Below, one piece after another: positions 255 to 8,389 of a DNA stretch of 39,242 bases. This DNA comes from Solirubrobacteraceae bacterium (lineage in GTDB: Bacteria > Actinomycetota > Thermoleophilia > Solirubrobacterales > Solirubrobacteraceae): positions 1-39,242 of the forward strand of contig JADGPP010000030.1 of assembly GCA_017882375.1 (NCBI GenBank). The letters run 5' to 3'. Under the pieces are notes generated by a model. That model searched no databases. It was not told the origin of the DNA and was given only the letters and a program-made list of their open reading frames with translations. The translations under genes were made by a program, and so were the position numbers. The first letter of the stretch is position 1, and each line of letters opens with the position of its first letter.

Positions 255-475
255 CGCCGTTGCTACCACCGGCCTCTTGGCTCGTCGAGTAGGATCCAGG
301 CGTTCAACGGCCGGTGGTGAAGGGAAGTCGGTGCGAATCCGACGCGGACCCGCCACTGTGACCGGGGATGCCTGCCGGAGCGCGCCGCGAGCGCGCAGCC
401 ACCGGTCCGCTTTCGCGGAACGGGAAGGCCCGGAGAGGTAGTCCCGGGAGCCAGGAGACCTGCCTCCGGCCGAAG
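255..475 (+). ncRNA. Cobalamin (AdoCbl-type) riboswitch
   Basis: The leader carries the hallmark cobalamin-riboswitch blocks in the right order. There is a perfect 10-bp P2 helix (ACCACCGGCC at 265-274 with GGCCGGTGGT at 309-318). Next comes the conserved core reading GGGAAGTCGGTGCGAATCC, then GCGGACCCGCCACTGTGA at about 344-361. The B12 box GCCAGGAGACCTGCC is at 450-464. Downstream, CCAC (477-480) can pair with GTGG (489-492), which abuts the AAGGGG ribosome-binding site at 494-499. This suggests that B12 binding blocks translation initiation, although the exact expression platform is inference. The outer boundaries are approximate. It precedes the ECF/DUF4430 operon and implies repression of that operon when B12 is plentiful. 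Confidence 0.95.
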
Positions 476-507
476 CCCACAAGCCCTCGTGGAAAGGGGT
501 TGGCTCA

Positions 508-1758
508 ATGCTCACATCTCGTCGCTTGTCTGTTGCGCTCGCCGTATCGGTTGTCGTCCTGCTTGCTCTGTTGAGCTCGGCCGTCGCCGCTGGCGCCGCG
601 CCGATCACCGTCAGCGTGCGCATCGAGGGGTCGTCGGCGACCCTCTACGAAGGACCGGTGACAACATCGGCCGAGACGTTCGAAACGCCATCGAGCGGCG
701 GGTCGCATCCCTGCGACTACTCCTCCAACGGGCCCTCCGGGGGCTTCGCCGACGAAGGCAATCCCTCGGGAACGCCGACGACGGCGCTGCACGACGCGGC
801 GCTCGCGAGTGGGCTGGACTTCGACGCCAAATGGTTCGGCAGCGGGCCGAGCAACGGCGATCCAGGCGACTTCTTCGTCGTCAAGGTGGGTGCGGACGCC
901 AACGGCGGTGCGCCGTCGTTTGCGTCGTGGGGCTATGCGGTCAACGACACGACCGCGATAGTCGGCGGGTGTCAGATCGCGCTCGCTCCTGGCAGTGAAG
1001 TGCTGTGGGCCTACAACTACTTCAACCTCACGCACCTGCTGAGTCTCTCCGGTCCTTCCAGCGTCGGCGCGGGCGCGCCGTTGACCGTGCACGTCGTCGA
1101 CGGCCGCACCGGCCAACCGATCGCCGGTGCGGCGATCGGACAGCTGGCGGCGGGTGTGACGACGACGCTTCCCGCCGGCCCGCTGACAGACGCGTCCGGC
1201 AACGCGACGGTCTCGCTGGCCGGCGTGGGGACGTTCACGCTGAAGGCGACCCAGCCGGAATCGGTGCGCTCCAACGGGCTCGCGGTGTGTGTTCACGCTG
1301 GCAACGACGGCTCGTGCGGCACGACGGTCTCGGGTGGGGGTTCGAGCTCGGCGCCCGGCGTCGGCAATGCCGTGGCCCCGACTGCGACGGGCCTGCTGGC
1401 GAGGATTCTCGGCGTCGTCAATGGAGGCGCCTACGCGCATCGCTCCGGGCCGCGTGTGCTGCGGGGAACCGTGAAGGTGGCGGCCGGCGGCAGCTTGCGC
1501 CAAGTTCGCATTCGCCTGCAGCGGCGCGTCGGTCGCCGCTGCTTGAACTTCAGCGGCGGGCGCGGGCTATTCGTGACTGCGCACAAGTGCGCGCCGGCGA
1601 CGTTCTTCTCGGTTGGCGATTCGGAGTCGTTCAGCTATCTGCTTCCCGCTCGGCTGCCGACCGGCCGCTACGTCTACGACATCGACGCCGTCGAAGCCTC
1701 CGGGAACGTGACGCGGCTCGTGGGAGGGGTGAGTCACGTCGTCTTCCGTGTCAAGTGA
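508..1758 (+). CDS. Secreted DUF4430 (transcobalamin C-terminal-like) protein, first gene of B12-riboswitch operon
   Basis: 416 residues. A Sec signal peptide occupies residues 1-31 (basic MLTSRR, hydrophobic core, AAGAA cleavage region). Residues about 33-175 form a DUF4430 domain, recognisable by its ending (WGYAVND, then GGCQIAL and EVLWAYNYF). Two cysteines (in HPCDY and GGCQ) could form a disulfide. Residues about 180-265 look like an Ig-like or carboxypeptidase-regulatory beta domain (DGRTGQPIAGAAI, TDASGNATVSL). The rest has a Ser/Gly linker and a basic beta-rich C-terminal module of unknown type. There is no C-terminal membrane anchor or LPXTG. The start has an AAGGGG ribosome-binding site 8 nt upstream. 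DUF4430 is the domain homologous to the beta domain of intrinsic factor and transcobalamin. With the riboswitch, a cobalamin-capturing role outside the membrane is likely but inferred. Confidence 0.85.
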   Translation: MLTSRRLSVALAVSVVVLLALLSSAVAAGAAPITVSVRIEGSSATLYEGPVTTSAETFETPSSGGSHPCDYSSNGPSGGFADEGNPSGTPTTALHDAALASGLDFDAKWFGSGPSNGDPGDFFVVKVGADANGGAPSFASWGYAVNDTTAIVGGCQIALAPGSEVLWAYNYFNLTHLLSLSGPSSVGAGAPLTVHVVDGRTGQPIAGAAIGQLAAGVTTTLPAGPLTDASGNATVSLAGVGTFTLKATQPESVRSNGLAVCVHAGNDGSCGTTVSGGGSSSAPGVGNAVAPTATGLLARILGVVNGGAYAHRSGPRVLRGTVKVAAGGSLRQVRIRLQRRVGRRCLNFSGGRGLFVTAHKCAPATFFSVGDSESFSYLLPARLPTGRYVYDIDAVEASGNVTRLVGGVSHVVFRVK

Positions 1759-2716
1759 GCGGCGCCCCGCGCCGCGCCGCGGGGGGACGCGTCTGGTGGC
1801 GATCGCCGGTCTGCTTGCCCTGGCGGCCACGCTCGCGTCCGGCTGTGGCCTCGGCGCGGGCAAGGCGCCGACCGCCGTCGGGCTCGTCGTCACACGCGAC
1901 TTCGGCGCGAAGGTCGTGCGCTCGTGGGGTGCGCCACAGGCGCGCGGCCAGGAGACGGTGATGAGCCTGCTGACGCGCAACGCGACCGTCTCGACTCGCT
2001 ACGGCGGCGCCTTCGTTCAGAGCATCGACGGTCTGGACGGCGGGCAGAGCGGCGGGCACTCGGTCGACTGGTTCTATTACGTCAACGGCATCCAGGCGTC
2101 AAAGGGCGCGGCGGCGACGAACGTGCATCCCGGCGATCACATCTGGTGGGACCGCCACGACTGGACTGCGACCGACGACATCCCCGCCGTCGTCGGCTCT
2201 TTCCCTGAGCCGTTTCTCAACGGAATCGACGGCAAGCGCCTGCCCGTGCGCGTGGAATGCGCGAGCGCGGGCGGCTATGCCTGTCGCACCGTGACCGCCC
2301 GTCTGCGTGCGCAGCACGTTCCGGCGGCCGTCGCGGCGCTCGGCAGCGGCGCGGGCGCGGCGCACACGCTGCGCGTGGCCGTCGGCACCTGGCGCGAGAT
2401 CGCCGGCGTCTCGGACGTCAGCGAGCTGCGCAGCGGCCCGCACGCGAGCGGCGTCTTTGCGCGCTTCTCACCATCGGGCGCCATGCTCACGCTGCTGGGC
2501 GAAGATGGCCGCTCCACGCAGACGCTCGCCGGCGGTGCGGGGTTGATCGCCGCCACGCGCAACGGCGAAGATGCGCCGGTGTGGGCCGTGACGGGCACCG
2601 ACGCCACCGGCGTGACGCGCGCAGCGAGCGCGTTCGACGCTTCGACGCTGAAGAACCGCTTCGCCGTCGCAGTCGATGCAAGCGGCCCGCTCGCGCTACC
2701 CCGTCCGCGAGCGTGA
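1748..2716 (+). CDS. DUF4430 lipoprotein, putative cobalamin-binding component
   Basis: 322 residues from a GTG that overlaps the previous gene by 11 nt, consistent with translational coupling. The N-terminus is basic (RRPAPRRGGTR), followed by a hydrophobic stretch and a lipobox LASGC, so Cys33 is the predicted lipidated residue. Residues about 42-142 form a second DUF4430 domain: a GQETVMSLL segment, then WFYYVNGI and HPGDHIWWDRHDW. The C-terminal half (about 150-322) is Ala/Gly-rich alpha/beta sequence that I cannot assign. Membrane tethering beside the ECF transporter suggests a substrate-binding lipoprotein handing cobalamin to the S component. Carrying two DUF4430 proteins, one soluble and one lipidated, is notable. 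Confidence 0.85.
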   Translation: MSSERRPAPRRGGTRLVAIAGLLALAATLASGCGLGAGKAPTAVGLVVTRDFGAKVVRSWGAPQARGQETVMSLLTRNATVSTRYGGAFVQSIDGLDGGQSGGHSVDWFYYVNGIQASKGAAATNVHPGDHIWWDRHDWTATDDIPAVVGSFPEPFLNGIDGKRLPVRVECASAGGYACRTVTARLRAQHVPAAVAALGSGAGAAHTLRVAVGTWREIAGVSDVSELRSGPHASGVFARFSPSGAMLTLLGEDGRSTQTLAGGAGLIAATRNGEDAPVWAVTGTDATGVTRAASAFDASTLKNRFAVAVDASGPLALPRPRA

Positions 2717-2720
2717 GGCG

Positions 2721-3623
2721 ATGATCGGCACGCTGCTGTTCTACCGGCGCATCGCAAGCCCGCTGCACGCCACGCGCGCCGGCATCGGCGCGGCGTGGGC
2801 TCTGTCGCTGACGGCCGCCGCGCTGATCCTCTACCACCCGCTTTGCCTGCTCGCGCTGCTGGTCGCCGTGCTCGGCGCCGGCTGGGGCGCCGGGGTCGGG
2901 CCGCGCCTGGCGCGCTCGCTGCGCACGGCGACGATCGTGGCGCTGCCGATCGTGCTCGTCAACGTGCTCGTCAGCCGTCAGGGTCTGACGGTGTTCGCGC
3001 GCCTGGGCGACCTCGGGCCGTTCGGCCAAGGCGACGTGACGGTCGAGGCGGCCGCCTATGGCGGCGTGATCGCCCTGAAGGTCACCATGTTGATCCTGAT
3101 CACCGGACTGGCAGGGCTCGCCGTGGACCCCGACGAGATGCTGCGCATGTTCCGCCGCCTGTCCTTTCGCTCGGCGCTCACGGCGACGCTGGCGACGCGC
3201 ATGCTCCCGGTGCTCGCCGCCGACTCCCAGCGCCTGGCCGAGGCGCAGCGCACGCGTCCAGCTGGTGCGCCGGCGGGCGCGCGCGGGCGCGTGGCGCTGT
3301 TGAGCGCGGTGGTCGGCGGCTCGCTGGACCGTGCGATGGACGTCGCGGCGACGCTCGAGGTTCGCGGCTTCGCGACGGCGCGCAGCGCTGCGGGGGCCAG
3401 AGGGCGCCCGCGCCGAGCGCTCTCGCGCCACGACATCGCCTTCGCGGCGTCGGCCGTCGCGATCCTCGCGCTCGCGATCGCCGGGCGCATGGCCGGCGTC
3501 GCCTCCTTCGCCGCATATCCGCGGATCGAGATGCCCACCGACGCCGGCACATTCGCGCTCGCCCTTGCGCTCATCGCCGCCACTGCGCTGCCGTTCTGCG
3601 ATCGCCGGGGGATCGACCCGTGA
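2721..3623 (+). CDS. ecfT: ECF transporter transmembrane coupling subunit EcfT
   Basis: 300 residues. I chose the ATG at 2721 because its GTGAGG ribosome-binding site overlaps the stop of the preceding gene and the product begins MIGTLLFYRRIASPLH, the usual EcfT opening; a longer frame from 2676 is less likely. The protein has several hydrophobic helices and the cytoplasmic signature EVRGFATARS near residue 213, a variant of the A-R-G motif through which EcfT couples to the ATPases. It stops in a GTGA overlap with the ATPase gene. EcfT links the two ATPases to the substrate-binding S subunit in energy-coupling-factor vitamin importers. Confidence 0.93.
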   Translation: MIGTLLFYRRIASPLHATRAGIGAAWALSLTAAALILYHPLCLLALLVAVLGAGWGAGVGPRLARSLRTATIVALPIVLVNVLVSRQGLTVFARLGDLGPFGQGDVTVEAAAYGGVIALKVTMLILITGLAGLAVDPDEMLRMFRRLSFRSALTATLATRMLPVLAADSQRLAEAQRTRPAGAPAGARGRVALLSAVVGGSLDRAMDVAATLEVRGFATARSAAGARGRPRRALSRHDIAFAASAVAILALAIAGRMAGVASFAAYPRIEMPTDAGTFALALALIAATALPFCDRRGIDP

Positions 3624-5335
3624 CCGGCGCCGTGCTGTCGCTCGAGAACGTCACCTACCGCTACCCCGACGTCGAGCGTGCGGCGCTCAGCGACGTCAGC
3701 CTGGAGATCGCGCCCGGCGAGTTCTGCCTGCTCGCCGGTCTGTCGGGAAGCGGCAAGTCCACGTTGCTGCGCGCGGCCTGCGGCCTGGTGCCGCACTTCC
3801 ACGGTGGCCGCTTCGCCGGCCGCGTCCAGCTCGCCGGCCTGGACACGCGCGAGCACGGGCCCGCGCGGCTCGGAGCGTTCGCCGGGGCGCTGTTCCAGGA
3901 CCCCGAGACGCAGCTGGTGACGGGCTCGGTGCGCGCTGAGCTGTCGCTGGCGCTGGAAAGCCGCGGCGAGAGCGCGGCGGGGGTGGCGCGGGGAGTCGAG
4001 GAGGTCGCGCTCGCGCTGGGCATCGATGCGCTGCTCGATCGTGCCCCGCACGAGCTCTCCGGCGGGGAGAAGCAGCGCGTCGCCCTCGGCGCCGCGCTCG
4101 CCGGCAGGCCGCAGATCGTGCTGCTCGACGAGCCGACCTCGCAGCTGGACCCGGTGGCCGGCGACGAGCTGATCGGGCTGCTGCGCAGGCTCAACCAGGA
4201 GTGGGAGACGACGGTCGTGCTCGCCGAGCATCGCCTCGAGCGCTGCCTCACCGGCGCCGACCGCGTGATCGCACTGCAGCATGGCCGCGTCGCCTGCGAC
4301 GGAGATCCGGCGGCGTTCATGCAATGGGCCAGCGAGCGCGCGCCGGCGCTGCAGACCCCCGGGGCCAAGCTGTTTGCGCTGTGCGACCTGCACCCGGCGC
4401 CGGTCGGGGTCAAGCAGGCGCGCGCGGCGCTTCGCTCGCTGGCGCTGCTGGGCGAGGACGATCCACGTGAGCCCGGTCGCGCCGAGCCCGCGCGCGCCGG
4501 CGCCGCGACTCGCCGCAGGGGTGCGCGCCGCGCGCGCAAGCTGTCGGCGCTGGCGATGCGTGGTGTGTGGCACGAGCTGCGCAACGGTCCGGCGATCCTG
4601 CGCGGCGCGACGCTTGTCGTCGCGCCGGGGGAGAGCGTCGCGCTGATGGGCCGAAACGGCGCCGGCAAGTCGACGCTGCTGCGACACGCCGCAGGCCTGC
4701 TGGAGCCGACGCGCGGGCGCATCGAAGCCTCCGGCAGGGTGGCGCTGCTGCTGCAGAACCCCGGCGACTACTTCATCCACGAGCGCGTCGACGAGGAGCT
4801 CTCGGCTGACGCACTGGAGGCTGCCGGGCTGACGGCGATGGCGGCACGCCATCCGCGCGATCTCTCCGGCGGCGAGCGCCAGCGTCTGGCGCTCGCGATC
4901 GTCACCGACGCGCACGATGCGGCGCAGACCCGGCGCGGTCACGCGCGGGCTCGCGACGACGACGCGCGGCGTGAGCGCCACGACGGCGACGTGCAGGCTC
5001 CGCCGGCGGTGCTCGCGCTCGACGAGCCGACGCGCGGCATGGACCGCCAGGGAAAGGCGGAGCTGGCCGGCGAGCTGCGCCGGCGCGCGGGGGAGGGGCA
5101 GGCGGTGATCGTCGCCACGCACGACCCCGAGTTCGCCGCCGCATGCGCCGACCGCGCGGTGCTGCTCGCCGACGGACGCGTGATCGCCGACGGTCCCACG
5201 CGCGAGCTGCTCGCCGGTGGCTGGTACTTCGCAACCGAGACCGCGCGCATCCTCGGCGGCGCGGGTGGCGCGCTGTTGCCCGAGGAAGGCGCCGAGCTGC
5301 TGCGCCGGCGCGCCCCCGTCGAGGTCGCGCTGTGA
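3620..5335 (+). CDS. Fused double ECF ATPase (EcfA-EcfA')
   Basis: 571 residues from the GTG at 3620, which overlaps the ecfT stop. The same frame is open far upstream, but homology begins at MTGAVLSLENVTYRY. Domain 1 has Walker [10 protein letters not shown] (40-48), signature LSGGEKQR (146-153) and Walker B IVLLDEP (166-172). Domain 2 has Walker A GRNGAGKST (344-352), signature LSGGERQR (415-422) and Walker B LALDEP (D468). The two are joined by an Arg/Ala-rich linker around residues 285-310. In domain 2 the gap between signature and Walker B is about 29 residues longer than in domain 1, owing to a His/Arg/Asp-rich insertion near 427-460. All catalytic motifs are intact, so both sites should work. 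It powers import with EcfT and the S component. Confidence 0.93.
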   Translation: MTGAVLSLENVTYRYPDVERAALSDVSLEIAPGEFCLLAGLSGSGKSTLLRAACGLVPHFHGGRFAGRVQLAGLDTREHGPARLGAFAGALFQDPETQLVTGSVRAELSLALESRGESAAGVARGVEEVALALGIDALLDRAPHELSGGEKQRVALGAALAGRPQIVLLDEPTSQLDPVAGDELIGLLRRLNQEWETTVVLAEHRLERCLTGADRVIALQHGRVACDGDPAAFMQWASERAPALQTPGAKLFALCDLHPAPVGVKQARAALRSLALLGEDDPREPGRAEPARAGAATRRRGARRARKLSALAMRGVWHELRNGPAILRGATLVVAPGESVALMGRNGAGKSTLLRHAAGLLEPTRGRIEASGRVALLLQNPGDYFIHERVDEELSADALEAAGLTAMAARHPRDLSGGERQRLALAIVTDAHDAAQTRRGHARARDDDARRERHDGDVQAPPAVLALDEPTRGMDRQGKAELAGELRRRAGEGQAVIVATHDPEFAAACADRAVLLADGRVIADGPTRELLAGGWYFATETARILGGAGGALLPEEGAELLRRRAPVEVAL

Positions 5336-6936
5336 GCTGGCCGCTCGCCTCGTTCTCGCTCGTCGGCGTCGTGCTCGCGCTCGGCTGGCTGGCCTACGAG
5401 CGCGCGCGCCTGTCGGCGCGGATGGTCGCCGTCGTCGGCACGCTCGCCGCGGTGGCGGCGCTCGGCCGCGATGCGTTCGTGGCGATCCCCGACGTCAAGC
5501 CGATCACGGCGATGACGCTCGTCGTCGGCTACGCGCTCGGGCCGCTGCCGGGCTTCACCGTCGGCGCGCTCGGCATGCTCGCATCGAACTTCGTGCTCGG
5601 ACAGGGCCCGCACACGCCGTGGCAGATGGCCACGTGGGGCCTGGTGGGGCTGGCCGGCGCGGCGCTCGGCGCGCTCAGTCGCCGGCGCCTGGGGCGCGTG
5701 CAGCTGGCGCTCGCCGCGGGGCTGGCCGCGCTGGCGGCCAAGGAGCTGATGAACGTGTATCAGTGGACGATCGGCGCCAGTCACACCCCGGCGGCGCTGC
5801 TGGTGATCGCCGGAACAGGCCTGCCGTTCGACCTGGCCGACGTGCTCGCGAGCTTCCTCTTCGGCCTGGCCTTCGCGCCCGAGCTCGCCCGACTGCTTGC
5901 GCGGATGCGCTCGCGAATGGACGTCACGTGGGAACCCGTCCAGCCGCCGGTCCCAGCGCCGCCGGCGCCGCCCGGCGCTCCTCGCGCGGGCGGGCTGCGA
6001 TCGCTGGGCGGACCGGGAGCAATCGTCGTGCTGCTGGTCGCGCTCGTCGCGCTCGCGGGCACGCCGCACGCCGCCTCAGCCGCCTCGTCCAGCCGCGGGC
6101 TCTCCTTCCTGATCGCCTCGCAGAACGCCGACGGCGGCTTCGGCGGCGCGAGCGGGCAGCACAGCAGCGAGCTGTACACGGGCTGGGCGGCGATGGGGCT
6201 GGCCGCCGCCGGGCGCAACCCGGCGACCGTAAGGCGCAACGGGCGCTCGGTGCTTGACTCGTTGCGCGCTGAAGCGGCGACGCTCGCCGGCGTCGGCGAC
6301 GACGAGCGCACGATCCTCGCCGTGCGCGCATGCGGCGCATCGGCGTATTCCTTTGCCGGGCGCAACCTCGTCGACGAAGTCCTGCGCGCTCGCGCCGGCG
6401 ACGGCTCCTTCGATCACCAGGTCAACCTGACCGCGTTTGCGATCTTCGCCCTGCGCGCCGCAGGGCACTCGCCGCGCCTCACCGCCATCCGCGAAGCGGC
6501 CGGCTGGATCGAGAGCCAGCAGAACGGCGACGGCGGGTTCGCGTTCGGCGGTCGTGGTGCGCGCAGCGACGTCGACGACACCGGAGCCGCTCTGCAGGCG
6601 CTCGCCGACGCCGGGGCGCGCAACCGGCGCGTGCTCGGCCTGGCCACGGGATACCTGACCCGCTCGCAGAATCCCGACGGCGGCTTTCCGCAGCAGTACG
6701 CAAGCGAGTCAAACGCGCAGTCGACGGCCTGGGCGGTGCAGGGCCTGATCGCCGCGGGCCGCGATCCCGCCGCCGTGCGCCGCCGCGCAAGCCGCTCGCC
6801 GATCGGCTACCTGGAAAGCCTGCTCGCGCCAAACGGCAGCGTGCGCTACTCGCGCACGAGCGCGCAGACGCCCGTTTGGGTCACGGCGCAGGCGCTGATC
6901 GCCTTGGCCGGCAAGACGTTCCCCGTCGCCGGCTGA
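5332..6936 (+). CDS. ECF S component fused to extracytoplasmic alpha/alpha-barrel (squalene-cyclase/transcobalamin alpha-like) domain
   Basis: 534 residues from the GTG at 5332, overlapping the ATPase stop. Residues 1 to about 195 contain five or six hydrophobic helices with PDVKPITAMTLVVGYALGPL and PGFTVGALGMLASNFVLGQG, typical of ECF substrate-binding subunits. A proline-rich linker (about 200-222) is followed by a further hydrophobic segment (229-247) ending in a signal-peptidase-like AASA. Residues about 255-534 form a helical repeat domain with three QNxDGGF motifs (264, 397, 446), the prenyltransferase/squalene-oxidase repeat that builds alpha6/alpha6 barrels. The N-terminal domain of intrinsic factor and transcobalamin has this fold. 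With two DUF4430 proteins in the same operon, the pair resembles a split transcobalamin feeding its own transporter; substrate identity rests on the riboswitch. Confidence 0.88.
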   Translation: MSWPLASFSLVGVVLALGWLAYERARLSARMVAVVGTLAAVAALGRDAFVAIPDVKPITAMTLVVGYALGPLPGFTVGALGMLASNFVLGQGPHTPWQMATWGLVGLAGAALGALSRRRLGRVQLALAAGLAALAAKELMNVYQWTIGASHTPAALLVIAGTGLPFDLADVLASFLFGLAFAPELARLLARMRSRMDVTWEPVQPPVPAPPAPPGAPRAGGLRSLGGPGAIVVLLVALVALAGTPHAASAASSSRGLSFLIASQNADGGFGGASGQHSSELYTGWAAMGLAAAGRNPATVRRNGRSVLDSLRAEAATLAGVGDDERTILAVRACGASAYSFAGRNLVDEVLRARAGDGSFDHQVNLTAFAIFALRAAGHSPRLTAIREAAGWIESQQNGDGGFAFGGRGARSDVDDTGAALQALADAGARNRRVLGLATGYLTRSQNPDGGFPQQYASESNAQSTAWAVQGLIAAGRDPAAVRRRASRSPIGYLESLLAPNGSVRYSRTSAQTPVWVTAQALIALAGKTFPVAG

Positions 6937-7768: not shown

Positions 7769-8389
7769 CTAGGAGGACTGTCCAGCGTCGTTGTCGGCGC
7801 GATGCGCGCCCGGCTGCCACAGCGGCTCGGCGGGCTGCTCGCTCGCGCCCGGCTCGTTGTTGGCGGCGCGGCTGAGGATGAACAGCAGATCCGACAGGCG
7901 GTTGAGGTAGCGGACCACCTCGCCGTTGCCCTCCTGGCCGACGGCGATCGCCCGACGCTCGGCGCGCCGGCAGACCGTGCGGCAGACGTGCAGGTGCGCC
8001 GCCGCGGGGGTGCCGCCCGGGATCACGAACGAGCGCAGGGGCGCGAGCGTCGCGTTGACCTCGTCGCAGGCGCGCTCGAGCCACTCGGTGTACTCGCCGC
8101 TGACGCGCAGGCGCTCGCGCGCGTCCGGGCCTGTGCCCGGGTCGGGCGCTGGGACCGACAGGTCGGCGCCGATGTCGAGCAGGTCGTTCTGCACACGCGC
8201 CAGCCACTGCGCGAACTGCTCGGGAAGGCCCGGCTGTAGCAGCGCGACGCCGATCGTCGCGTTGAGCTCGTCGACTGTGCCGTAGGCCTCGACGCGGGGG
8301 TGCAGCTTGGAGACACGGCTCATGTCGCCGAGGTGGGTCTCGCCGCCGTCGCCGAGCTTGGTGTAAATCCGTGTCAGGTTGACGGTCAT
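7769..8389 (-). CDS. pduO: PduO-type cob(I)alamin adenosyltransferase
   Basis: 206 residues. Motifs of the PduO/MMAB family are clear: TKLGDGGETHLGD near the N-terminus (ATP-binding loop), VEAYGTVDELNA, LLDIGADLS, the CRRAERRA arginine/glutamate helix and YLNRLSDLLFILSR. The enzyme transfers the adenosyl group of ATP to cob(I)alamin to make adenosylcobalamin. The C-terminal 25 residues are a polar tail. The gene lies 0.8 kb from the riboswitch-controlled importer, which fits salvage of imported B12, although no riboswitch precedes this gene. A TATCAT -10 lies 36 nt upstream. It is divergent from the transhydrogenase operon. Confidence 0.95.
   Translation of the reverse strand: MTVNLTRIYTKLGDGGETHLGDMSRVSKLHPRVEAYGTVDELNATIGVALLQPGLPEQFAQWLARVQNDLLDIGADLSVPAPDPGTGPDARERLRVSGEYTEWLERACDEVNATLAPLRSFVIPGGTPAAAHLHVCRTVCRRAERRAIAVGQEGNGEVVRYLNRLSDLLFILSRAANNEPGASEQPAEPLWQPGAHRADNDAGQSS

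Follow-up and report, generated by a model that had tools for sequence, protein, structure and literature searches.

The window analysed here, a stretch of 39,242 nucleotides from the draft genome (96% complete) of a soil actinobacterium, contains a cobalamin riboswitch followed by genes for exported DUF4430 proteins and an ECF transporter, and we confirmed that the operon described in the first-pass annotation is real. The full-length riboswitch aptamer (RF00174, positions 298–481, + strand) scored 76.4 bits with cmscan, where the gathering score is 31.5, covers the complete model (1–189) and includes a B12-box, AGCCAGGAGACCTGCC, located from the sequence at 449–464. A genome-wide search of the 96%-complete draft showed it to be the only RF00174 match of the source genome.

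All operon genes lie on the + strand. The first (A, 508–1758) encodes an exported protein with a signal peptide, a divergent DUF4430-like domain and an Ig/CarboxypepD_reg-like domain, based on sub-threshold Pfam matches and HHalign. It is followed by a predicted DUF4430 lipoprotein (B, 1748–2716; Pfam and conservation), the CbiQ-family transmembrane coupling protein EcfT (2721–3623; PF02361, E=5.4e-13) and a fused EcfA-EcfA′ ATPase pair (3620–5335) with two ABC_tran stretches (E=8.9e-42), for which TIGR04520/04521 were the best matches, below their cut-offs. The last reading frame of the ORF list (5332–6936) encodes an S component fused to a helical barrel, as had been proposed. The genes were said to be joined by short overlaps, which holds for three junctions (11, 4 and 4 nt); B and EcfT are instead separated by a 4-nt gap. 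Outside the operon, a gene for a PduO-type cobalamin adenosyltransferase (7769–8389, – strand; PF01923, E=6.6e-60; TIGR00636 above cut-off) adjoins it on the opposite strand, a further link to B12 that is also found near the operon in many relatives.

Pfam gives only weak ECF S-component matches for the last gene product (residues 27–182). A family profile of its S domain (profile A5; aa 1–205, 5332–5946), compared with the PDB, matched 6FNP_A, CbrT, the S component characterised for ECF-type uptake of vitamin B12 (PMC5997447), with E=2.7e-25, compared with 0.0011 for RibU and 0.054 for FolT. By profile comparison, this domain is thus related to CbrT and nearer to it than to S components that serve other substrates. 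The operon brings an S component together with EcfT and a pair of EcfA ATPases, which is the make-up of an ECF transporter. Together, the riboswitch and the CbrT-related domain agree with the earlier suggestion of ECF-type B12 import under B12 control, and the operon very likely serves this purpose.

Conservation of the operon and its relation to B12 synthesis

A related-locus search yielded nine close relatives. At the order level, every one of the 32 loci of sufficient length keeps the succession riboswitch, B, EcfT, EcfA-EcfA′ and S component, which argues against a chance arrangement. The upstream riboswitch is of the cobalamin class in all of these loci. The barrel is fused to the S component in 28 of the 32 operons; the four genomes without it belong to a single genus.

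A second layout recurs across the Actinomycetota, in which the riboswitch is followed by genes for the barrel, a small DUF4430-like protein, EcfT, EcfA-EcfA′ and the S component. Cobalamin riboswitches lie immediately 5′ of such barrel-first operons in many other families. The small proteins of this layout gave no match to Pfam DUF4430, and HHalign related them to A with 86.7% and to B with 71.4% probability, compared with 0.5% for a negative control. A Streptomyces-like locus shows the succession barrel, DUF4430-like gene, EcfT, EcfA-EcfA′ and S component; at the one such locus examined for it (family f27), no riboswitch was detected. In one locus of the second layout (relative L122:9454-12279), the barrel and two DUF4430-like domains are present in a single chain, in the order found in transcobalamin.

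The occurrence of the operon is complementary to that of de novo B12 synthesis, for which CbiC served as the one marker of the corrin-ring pathway. No CbiC was found in the 96%-complete draft of the source genome. At the order level, 14 of 15 genomes checked that carry the operon lack this marker, while all four without the operon possess it, and B12-binding enzymes occur in 19 of 19 order genomes checked. Across the phylum, 148 genomes with the S component include 23 that have CbiC, while the 248 genomes lacking it include 88 (Fisher test ignoring phylogeny, p=1.6e-5). Eleven Streptomyces-like genomes of family f27 contain both CbiC and the S component, indicating that the system is not restricted to auxotrophs.

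The barrel and the DUF4430 proteins

The barrel domain (aa 246–534, 6067–6933) contains GGF repeats and matches the SQHop_cyclase_C/Prenyltrans toroids of Pfam. Its AF2 model (mean pLDDT about 90) is an alpha/alpha toroid with Z scores of 22–28 to toroid proteins, the highest (27.7) to squalene-hopene cyclase. The closest structures are squalene-hopene cyclases and prenyltransferases, and the best profile and fold matches, considered among the best 50, include drimenyl cyclases. Transcobalamin is absent from the best 50 Foldseek/VIA matches; because only these 50 were considered, this is no evidence against kinship. PF01122, the transcobalamin alpha family, matched none of the window proteins at E≤1 and 2 of 37 barrels (best E 0.16), and gave no match above cut-off across 28 genomes. 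These matches do not support a specific correspondence of the barrel to the transcobalamin alpha domain, the nearest folds being terpene cyclases and prenyltransferases.

Between the S domain and the barrel lies an extra hydrophobic segment (aa 225–243, 6004–6060) with the highest hydropathy of the protein (2.33), followed by an AxA motif. It could be a seventh transmembrane helix or a signal-peptide-like linker, either of which would place the barrel outside the membrane. Given this signal-peptide-like segment with its AxA motif, cleavage may release the barrel from the S component instead of leaving it directly tethered. In other loci, barrels carry SLH or cell-wall-binding domains as anchors.

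Two exported DUF4430 proteins had been proposed. For B this is supported by a PF14478 match above cut-off (E=4.1e-15; 56.4 vs 23.8 bits; aa 69–135, 1952–2152), found in 29 of 29 relatives, and by a lipobox cysteine (Cys33) kept in at least 90% of relatives. For A (DUF4430-like aa 118–170, Ig/CarboxypepD_reg-like aa 192–260) the Pfam match remains sub-threshold (E=0.0099; 16.8 vs 23.8 bits) and is backed by an HHalign probability of 96.6% between the A profile and the B family profile. All DUF4430 matches of the source genome lie inside the operon. After the DUF4430 domain, B continues with some 150 aa of C-terminal sequence that is uncharacterised. While a full-length B profile found no match in the PDB, a profile of the DUF4430 domain retrieved 3U7Z (E 0.0042) and, in second place, the beta domain of human Transcobalamin-1 (E 0.22), hints of kinship that are suggestive only. 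An AF2 model of B, built from six sequences, was too poor for use (pLDDT 47), and a plasmid search with B gave no match. The operon provides, as had been anticipated, both transcobalamin-type halves as separate parts predicted to be exported, with the DUF4430 proteins and the toroid encoded by separate reading frames.

A possible capture mechanism and its alternatives

Based on these observations, we consider it probable that this is a scavenging operon for B12 or related corrinoids, with a two-part extracellular clamp feeding a CbrT-like ECF importer; the clamp itself is likely. The host would be a B12-requiring bacterium in which corrin-ring synthesis is undetected, and AdoCbl would repress the operon. 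Outside the membrane, a corrinoid would be caught between lipoprotein B, with its DUF4430 domain, and the toroid barrel, which would either stay attached to the S component or be cleaved from it; soluble A may assist. It would then be handed to the CbrT-like S domain and imported by EcfT and EcfA-EcfA′ at the expense of ATP. We infer that a substrate is bound, that the two halves sandwich it and pass it on to S, and that the barrel lies outside the membrane. Joint action of the halves, part of the original proposal, is supported at the sequence level by the relative combining barrel and DUF4430-like domains in one chain. About evenly poised, in our judgement, is the more specific idea of a split transcobalamin, in which barrel and lipoprotein close over cobalamin outside the cell, reopen and pass it to the CbrT-type S domain of the same chain. 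In the literature we searched, no ECF transporter is described as using such reversible capture and hand-over.

Alternatively, the DUF4430 proteins alone could be the corrinoid receptors of the importer, with a structural toroid that mediates docking or cell-wall contact and never touches B12. The generic character of the barrel in sequence and fold, lacking a PF01122 match, and its absence from the operons of one genus fit this explanation. We nevertheless regard it as unlikely given the retention of the barrel in most operons, its fusion to DUF4430-like domains in one relative, its position directly 3′ of cobalamin riboswitches in other families, and the sandwiching of B12 by toroid and SLBB domains in transcobalamin (PMC1796856). 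It is rather improbable that the substrate is a precursor (cobinamide) or another cobamide instead of cobalamin itself, even though CbrT and the human carriers also accept cobinamide (PMC5997447).

There is very little chance that the barrel is an exported enzyme that processes prenyl or terpene compounds and shares its regulation with a B12 importer. Cyclases are its top fold and profile matches, and its DVDDT sequence (aa 413–417) resembles the class II DxDD motif; however, this motif varies within the family (SDxDST, SDxNTT and others), DVDDT looks like one copy of a repeated helix-start motif, and the barrel is predicted to lie outside the membrane and is linked to DUF4430 and the riboswitch. 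A CbiMNQO-type cobalt importer, which the CbiQ-family EcfT, the CbiO-like ATPases and the frequent control of cobalt uptake by B12 riboswitches (PMC3766115) might suggest, is hardly credible given a CbrT-related S domain, no Pfam match to CbiM or CbiN among the operon proteins and, with CbiC absent, no sign of cobalt-needing corrin synthesis.

Comparison with known B12 importers and carriers

To our knowledge, ECF importers have been described as not requiring a separate extracellular binding protein. If the proposed clamp exists, this ECF importer would have a two-part module devoted to capture. The operon also points to candidate B12 uptake genes across much of the Actinomycetota, where many genomes use B12 and lack the synthesis marker. 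B12-capturing lipoproteins of gut Bacteroides act in an outer-membrane setting and are unrelated to the window proteins. The likeness is that the corrinoid is captured at the surface ahead of an importer (PMC6143338).

ECF-CbrT of Lactobacillus delbrueckii (6FNP, PMC5997447) shares the S family, the ECF module and a nearby pduO gene with the window. There, CbrT is a 182-residue S component without a fused barrel that uses a shared group II module, whereas the window combines S, T and A genes and adds DUF4430 proteins and a toroid. The barrel belongs to the same family as the SCO2321 family membrane protein (NF053823; 94.7 bits, E 5.5e-27), albeit below the model cut-off of 300 bits. In the open-access literature, we found no experimental work on the actinobacterial barrel/DUF4430 ECF system.

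Burroughs et al. (2007; PMC1796856) predicted B12 scavengers, mainly in low-GC Gram-positives, that unite an SLBB domain (DUF4430-type, of the transcobalamin C-terminal clade) and an alpha/alpha toroid in one chain and are encoded with CbiO/CbiQ; neither an S component nor a riboswitch was described. Like these systems, the window has an exported DUF4430-type domain and toroid, a paralogous second SLBB protein and a CbiO/CbiQ operon, and in both cases hosts usually lack key B12 synthesis enzymes and scavenging is proposed. It differs in its separate chains, the toroid on the S component and its occurrence in Actinomycetota. The claim of a distinct mechanism is therefore narrowed: the general idea dates from 2007, to which the present analysis adds the fusion of barrel and S component, the use of separate chains, the link to a riboswitch and the spread among actinobacteria. 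Separate halves, barrel-S fusion and single-chain form now provide material on which to test the idea, put forward in 2007, that transcobalamin of animals arose from bacterial surface B12 scavengers. Like transcobalamin, intrinsic factor and haptocorrin of animals, the operon pairs a barrel, modelled as an alpha/alpha toroid, with a DUF4430-type beta domain; unlike them, its halves reside on separate chains, a membrane transporter is attached and the barrel falls outside PF01122. A split transcobalamin, if it exists, would be a bacterial counterpart of the arrangement that may have given rise to the animal B12 carriers.

Riboswitch, operon and probable substrate

The genome carrying the operon (G000) is an actinobacterial draft of 3.57 Mb in 172 contigs (96% complete), and the named close relatives are metagenome assemblies of Solirubrobacterales/Solirubrobacteraceae. 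The only cobalamin riboswitch found in the genome is complete (298-481; 76.4 bits against a gathering threshold of 31.5), with 26 nt between its end and the start codon of the first gene. On the same strand follow ORFs for A (508-1758) and B (1748-2716), the two exported DUF4430-type proteins, EcfT (2721-3623), the fused ATPases EcfA-A′ (3620-5335) and S::barrel (5332-6936). Three of the junctions overlap, by 11, 4 and 4 nt, while the fourth has a 4-nt gap. Riboswitch score, ORFs and domain matches confirm the riboswitch-led operon described in the first-pass annotation. Downstream lie a PAP2 phosphatase gene and then a convergent gene for a PduO-type cobalamin adenosyltransferase (7769-8389, minus strand), which is found upstream of the riboswitch instead in L040, L042, L048 and L056.

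A profile of 36 S domains matched CbrT (6FNP, the ECF-CbrT structure; PMC5997447) at E 2.7e-25, followed by RibU at E 0.0011. CbrT was established experimentally as an S component for cobalamin/cobinamide (PMC5997447), and we consider it very probable that the operon imports B12.

Corrin-ring synthesis was scored by a single marker, CbiC, which is absent from G000. Among 19 genomes of the order, all of which encode B12-binding-domain proteins, CbiC is missing in 14 of 15 with the operon and present in 4/4 without it (Fisher p=0.0013, phylogeny ignored). Across the phylum, CbiC occurs in 23/148 genomes with the S component versus 88/248 without (p=1.6e-5, phylogeny ignored); 11 of these 23 belong to one Streptomyces-like family.

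The barrel and the DUF4430 proteins

In S::barrel, the S-component half is followed by a hydrophobic stretch (aa 225-243), an AxA motif and the barrel, which may stay tethered or be clipped off. For the barrel, the sequence profile and the AF2 model, with a mean pLDDT of about 90 in this part, both point to an alpha/alpha toroid. The barrel had been equated with the transcobalamin alpha domain, a name that is not warranted, since the barrel failed the PF01122 test. In the structure comparison it came closest to squalene-hopene cyclase (Z 27.7), followed by drimenyl synthases and protein prenyltransferases. S-domain matches within open frames of >1000 codons (G323:C1:667700, G281:C1:2563778, G397:C1:286416, G158:C2:82679) are possibly other S fusions.

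B is a clear DUF4430 protein (Pfam, E 4.1e-15); the domain is matched in 29/29 aligned relatives, and the lipobox cysteine is conserved in at least 90%. In the C-terminal half of B, a stretch of about 150 residues following this domain (window 2240-2713) is kept in most B relatives and has no Pfam match; it could form a second ligand or docking domain. A is exported, with a DUF4430 match below cut-off, and reaches 96.6% against the B family in profile-profile comparison. All DUF4430 matches of G000 at E<=0.01 fall within the operon. The DUF4430-domain profile finds human Transcobalamin-1 weakly (E 0.22). In many relatives, including L034:6966-7712 (-), L041:1881-2678 (+) and L038, A and B are separated by a further gene for an exported protein, a putative third paralogue whose DUF4430/CarboxypepD_reg-like signals are weak. 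G030, which has CbiC and no S::barrel match, has a DUF4430 gene at G030:C94:21128-21328.

Conservation and variant layouts

An S::barrel relative is encoded in 51/61 genomes searched in the order. In all 32 loci on contigs spanning riboswitch to S, the riboswitch precedes B, EcfT, the EcfA fusion and S in this order, and S carries the barrel in 28. The remaining four (L058, L059, L060, L065) belong to one genus. In G039, G042, G045 and G048 (one genus; L058-L060), the operon S lacks the barrel and a divergent barrel (29-32% identity) lies elsewhere in each genome. Because S and barrel are separate neighboring genes in the same-class relative L114, the two appear to have been fused later.

Phylum-wide, barrel family NF053823 was matched in 98/396 genomes, many loci reading riboswitch, exported barrel, small exported protein, EcfT, EcfA-A′ and S. 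The small proteins usually end in a C-terminal hydrophobic segment. They give no Pfam DUF4430 match but show colinear alignments to A (86.7%) and to B (71.4%), compared with 0.5% for a negative control. At several such loci the riboswitch scores weakly (24-40 bits), but its position directly 5′ of the barrel recurs across families; none was detected at the Streptomyces-like locus L095.

Proposed capture and known systems

In locus L122, which has an operon of the barrel-first layout, the first gene encodes a single exported chain combining a barrel (ORF residues 88-409) with a pair of DUF4430-like domains (about 356-667), which score E 8.5e-39 against a profile built without this chain. The domain order is that of transcobalamin, with cell-wall-binding domains coming after. 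Two adjoining barrel-type exported proteins there, L122:7222-9210 (+) and L122:9454-12279 (+), both have CWB2 cell-wall-binding domains, the latter being the chain with the DUF4430-like domains. SLH domains occur on the barrels of L103 and L112, and C-terminal hydrophobic segments on others. Since S fusion, SLH, CWB2 and TM-segment variants recur, the barrel appears to be repeatedly held at the cell surface, which fits extracellular capture.

From these findings we infer as the most likely working that low AdoCbl would switch on expression and corrinoid would be captured extracellularly between barrel and DUF4430 protein; the CbrT-type S domain would then receive it, and the ECF module would carry it into the cell. 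That barrel and DUF4430 protein form a two-part clamp on the corrinoid is somewhat favored. The proposed split transcobalamin-like importer stands in part: the CbrT-type S component, both halves in one operon and the L122 chain speak for it, and the PF01122 result against alpha-domain identity.

In the open literature searched, we found no experimental work on this system and no description of the barrel-S fusion, of separate chains combined with a CbrT-type S component, of the riboswitch link or of the actinobacterial breadth. The core idea of an SLBB-plus-toroid B12 scavenger was already anticipated by Burroughs et al. 2007 (PMC1796856), who established the SLBB superfamily. They described SLBB-toroid fusions in bacteria, paralogous SLBB proteins and operons shared with CbiO/CbiQ, whose bacterial hosts usually lack key B12 enzymes, and suggested a role in B12 scavenging as well as transfer to animals. 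The present system is a variant of the kind predicted in 2007.
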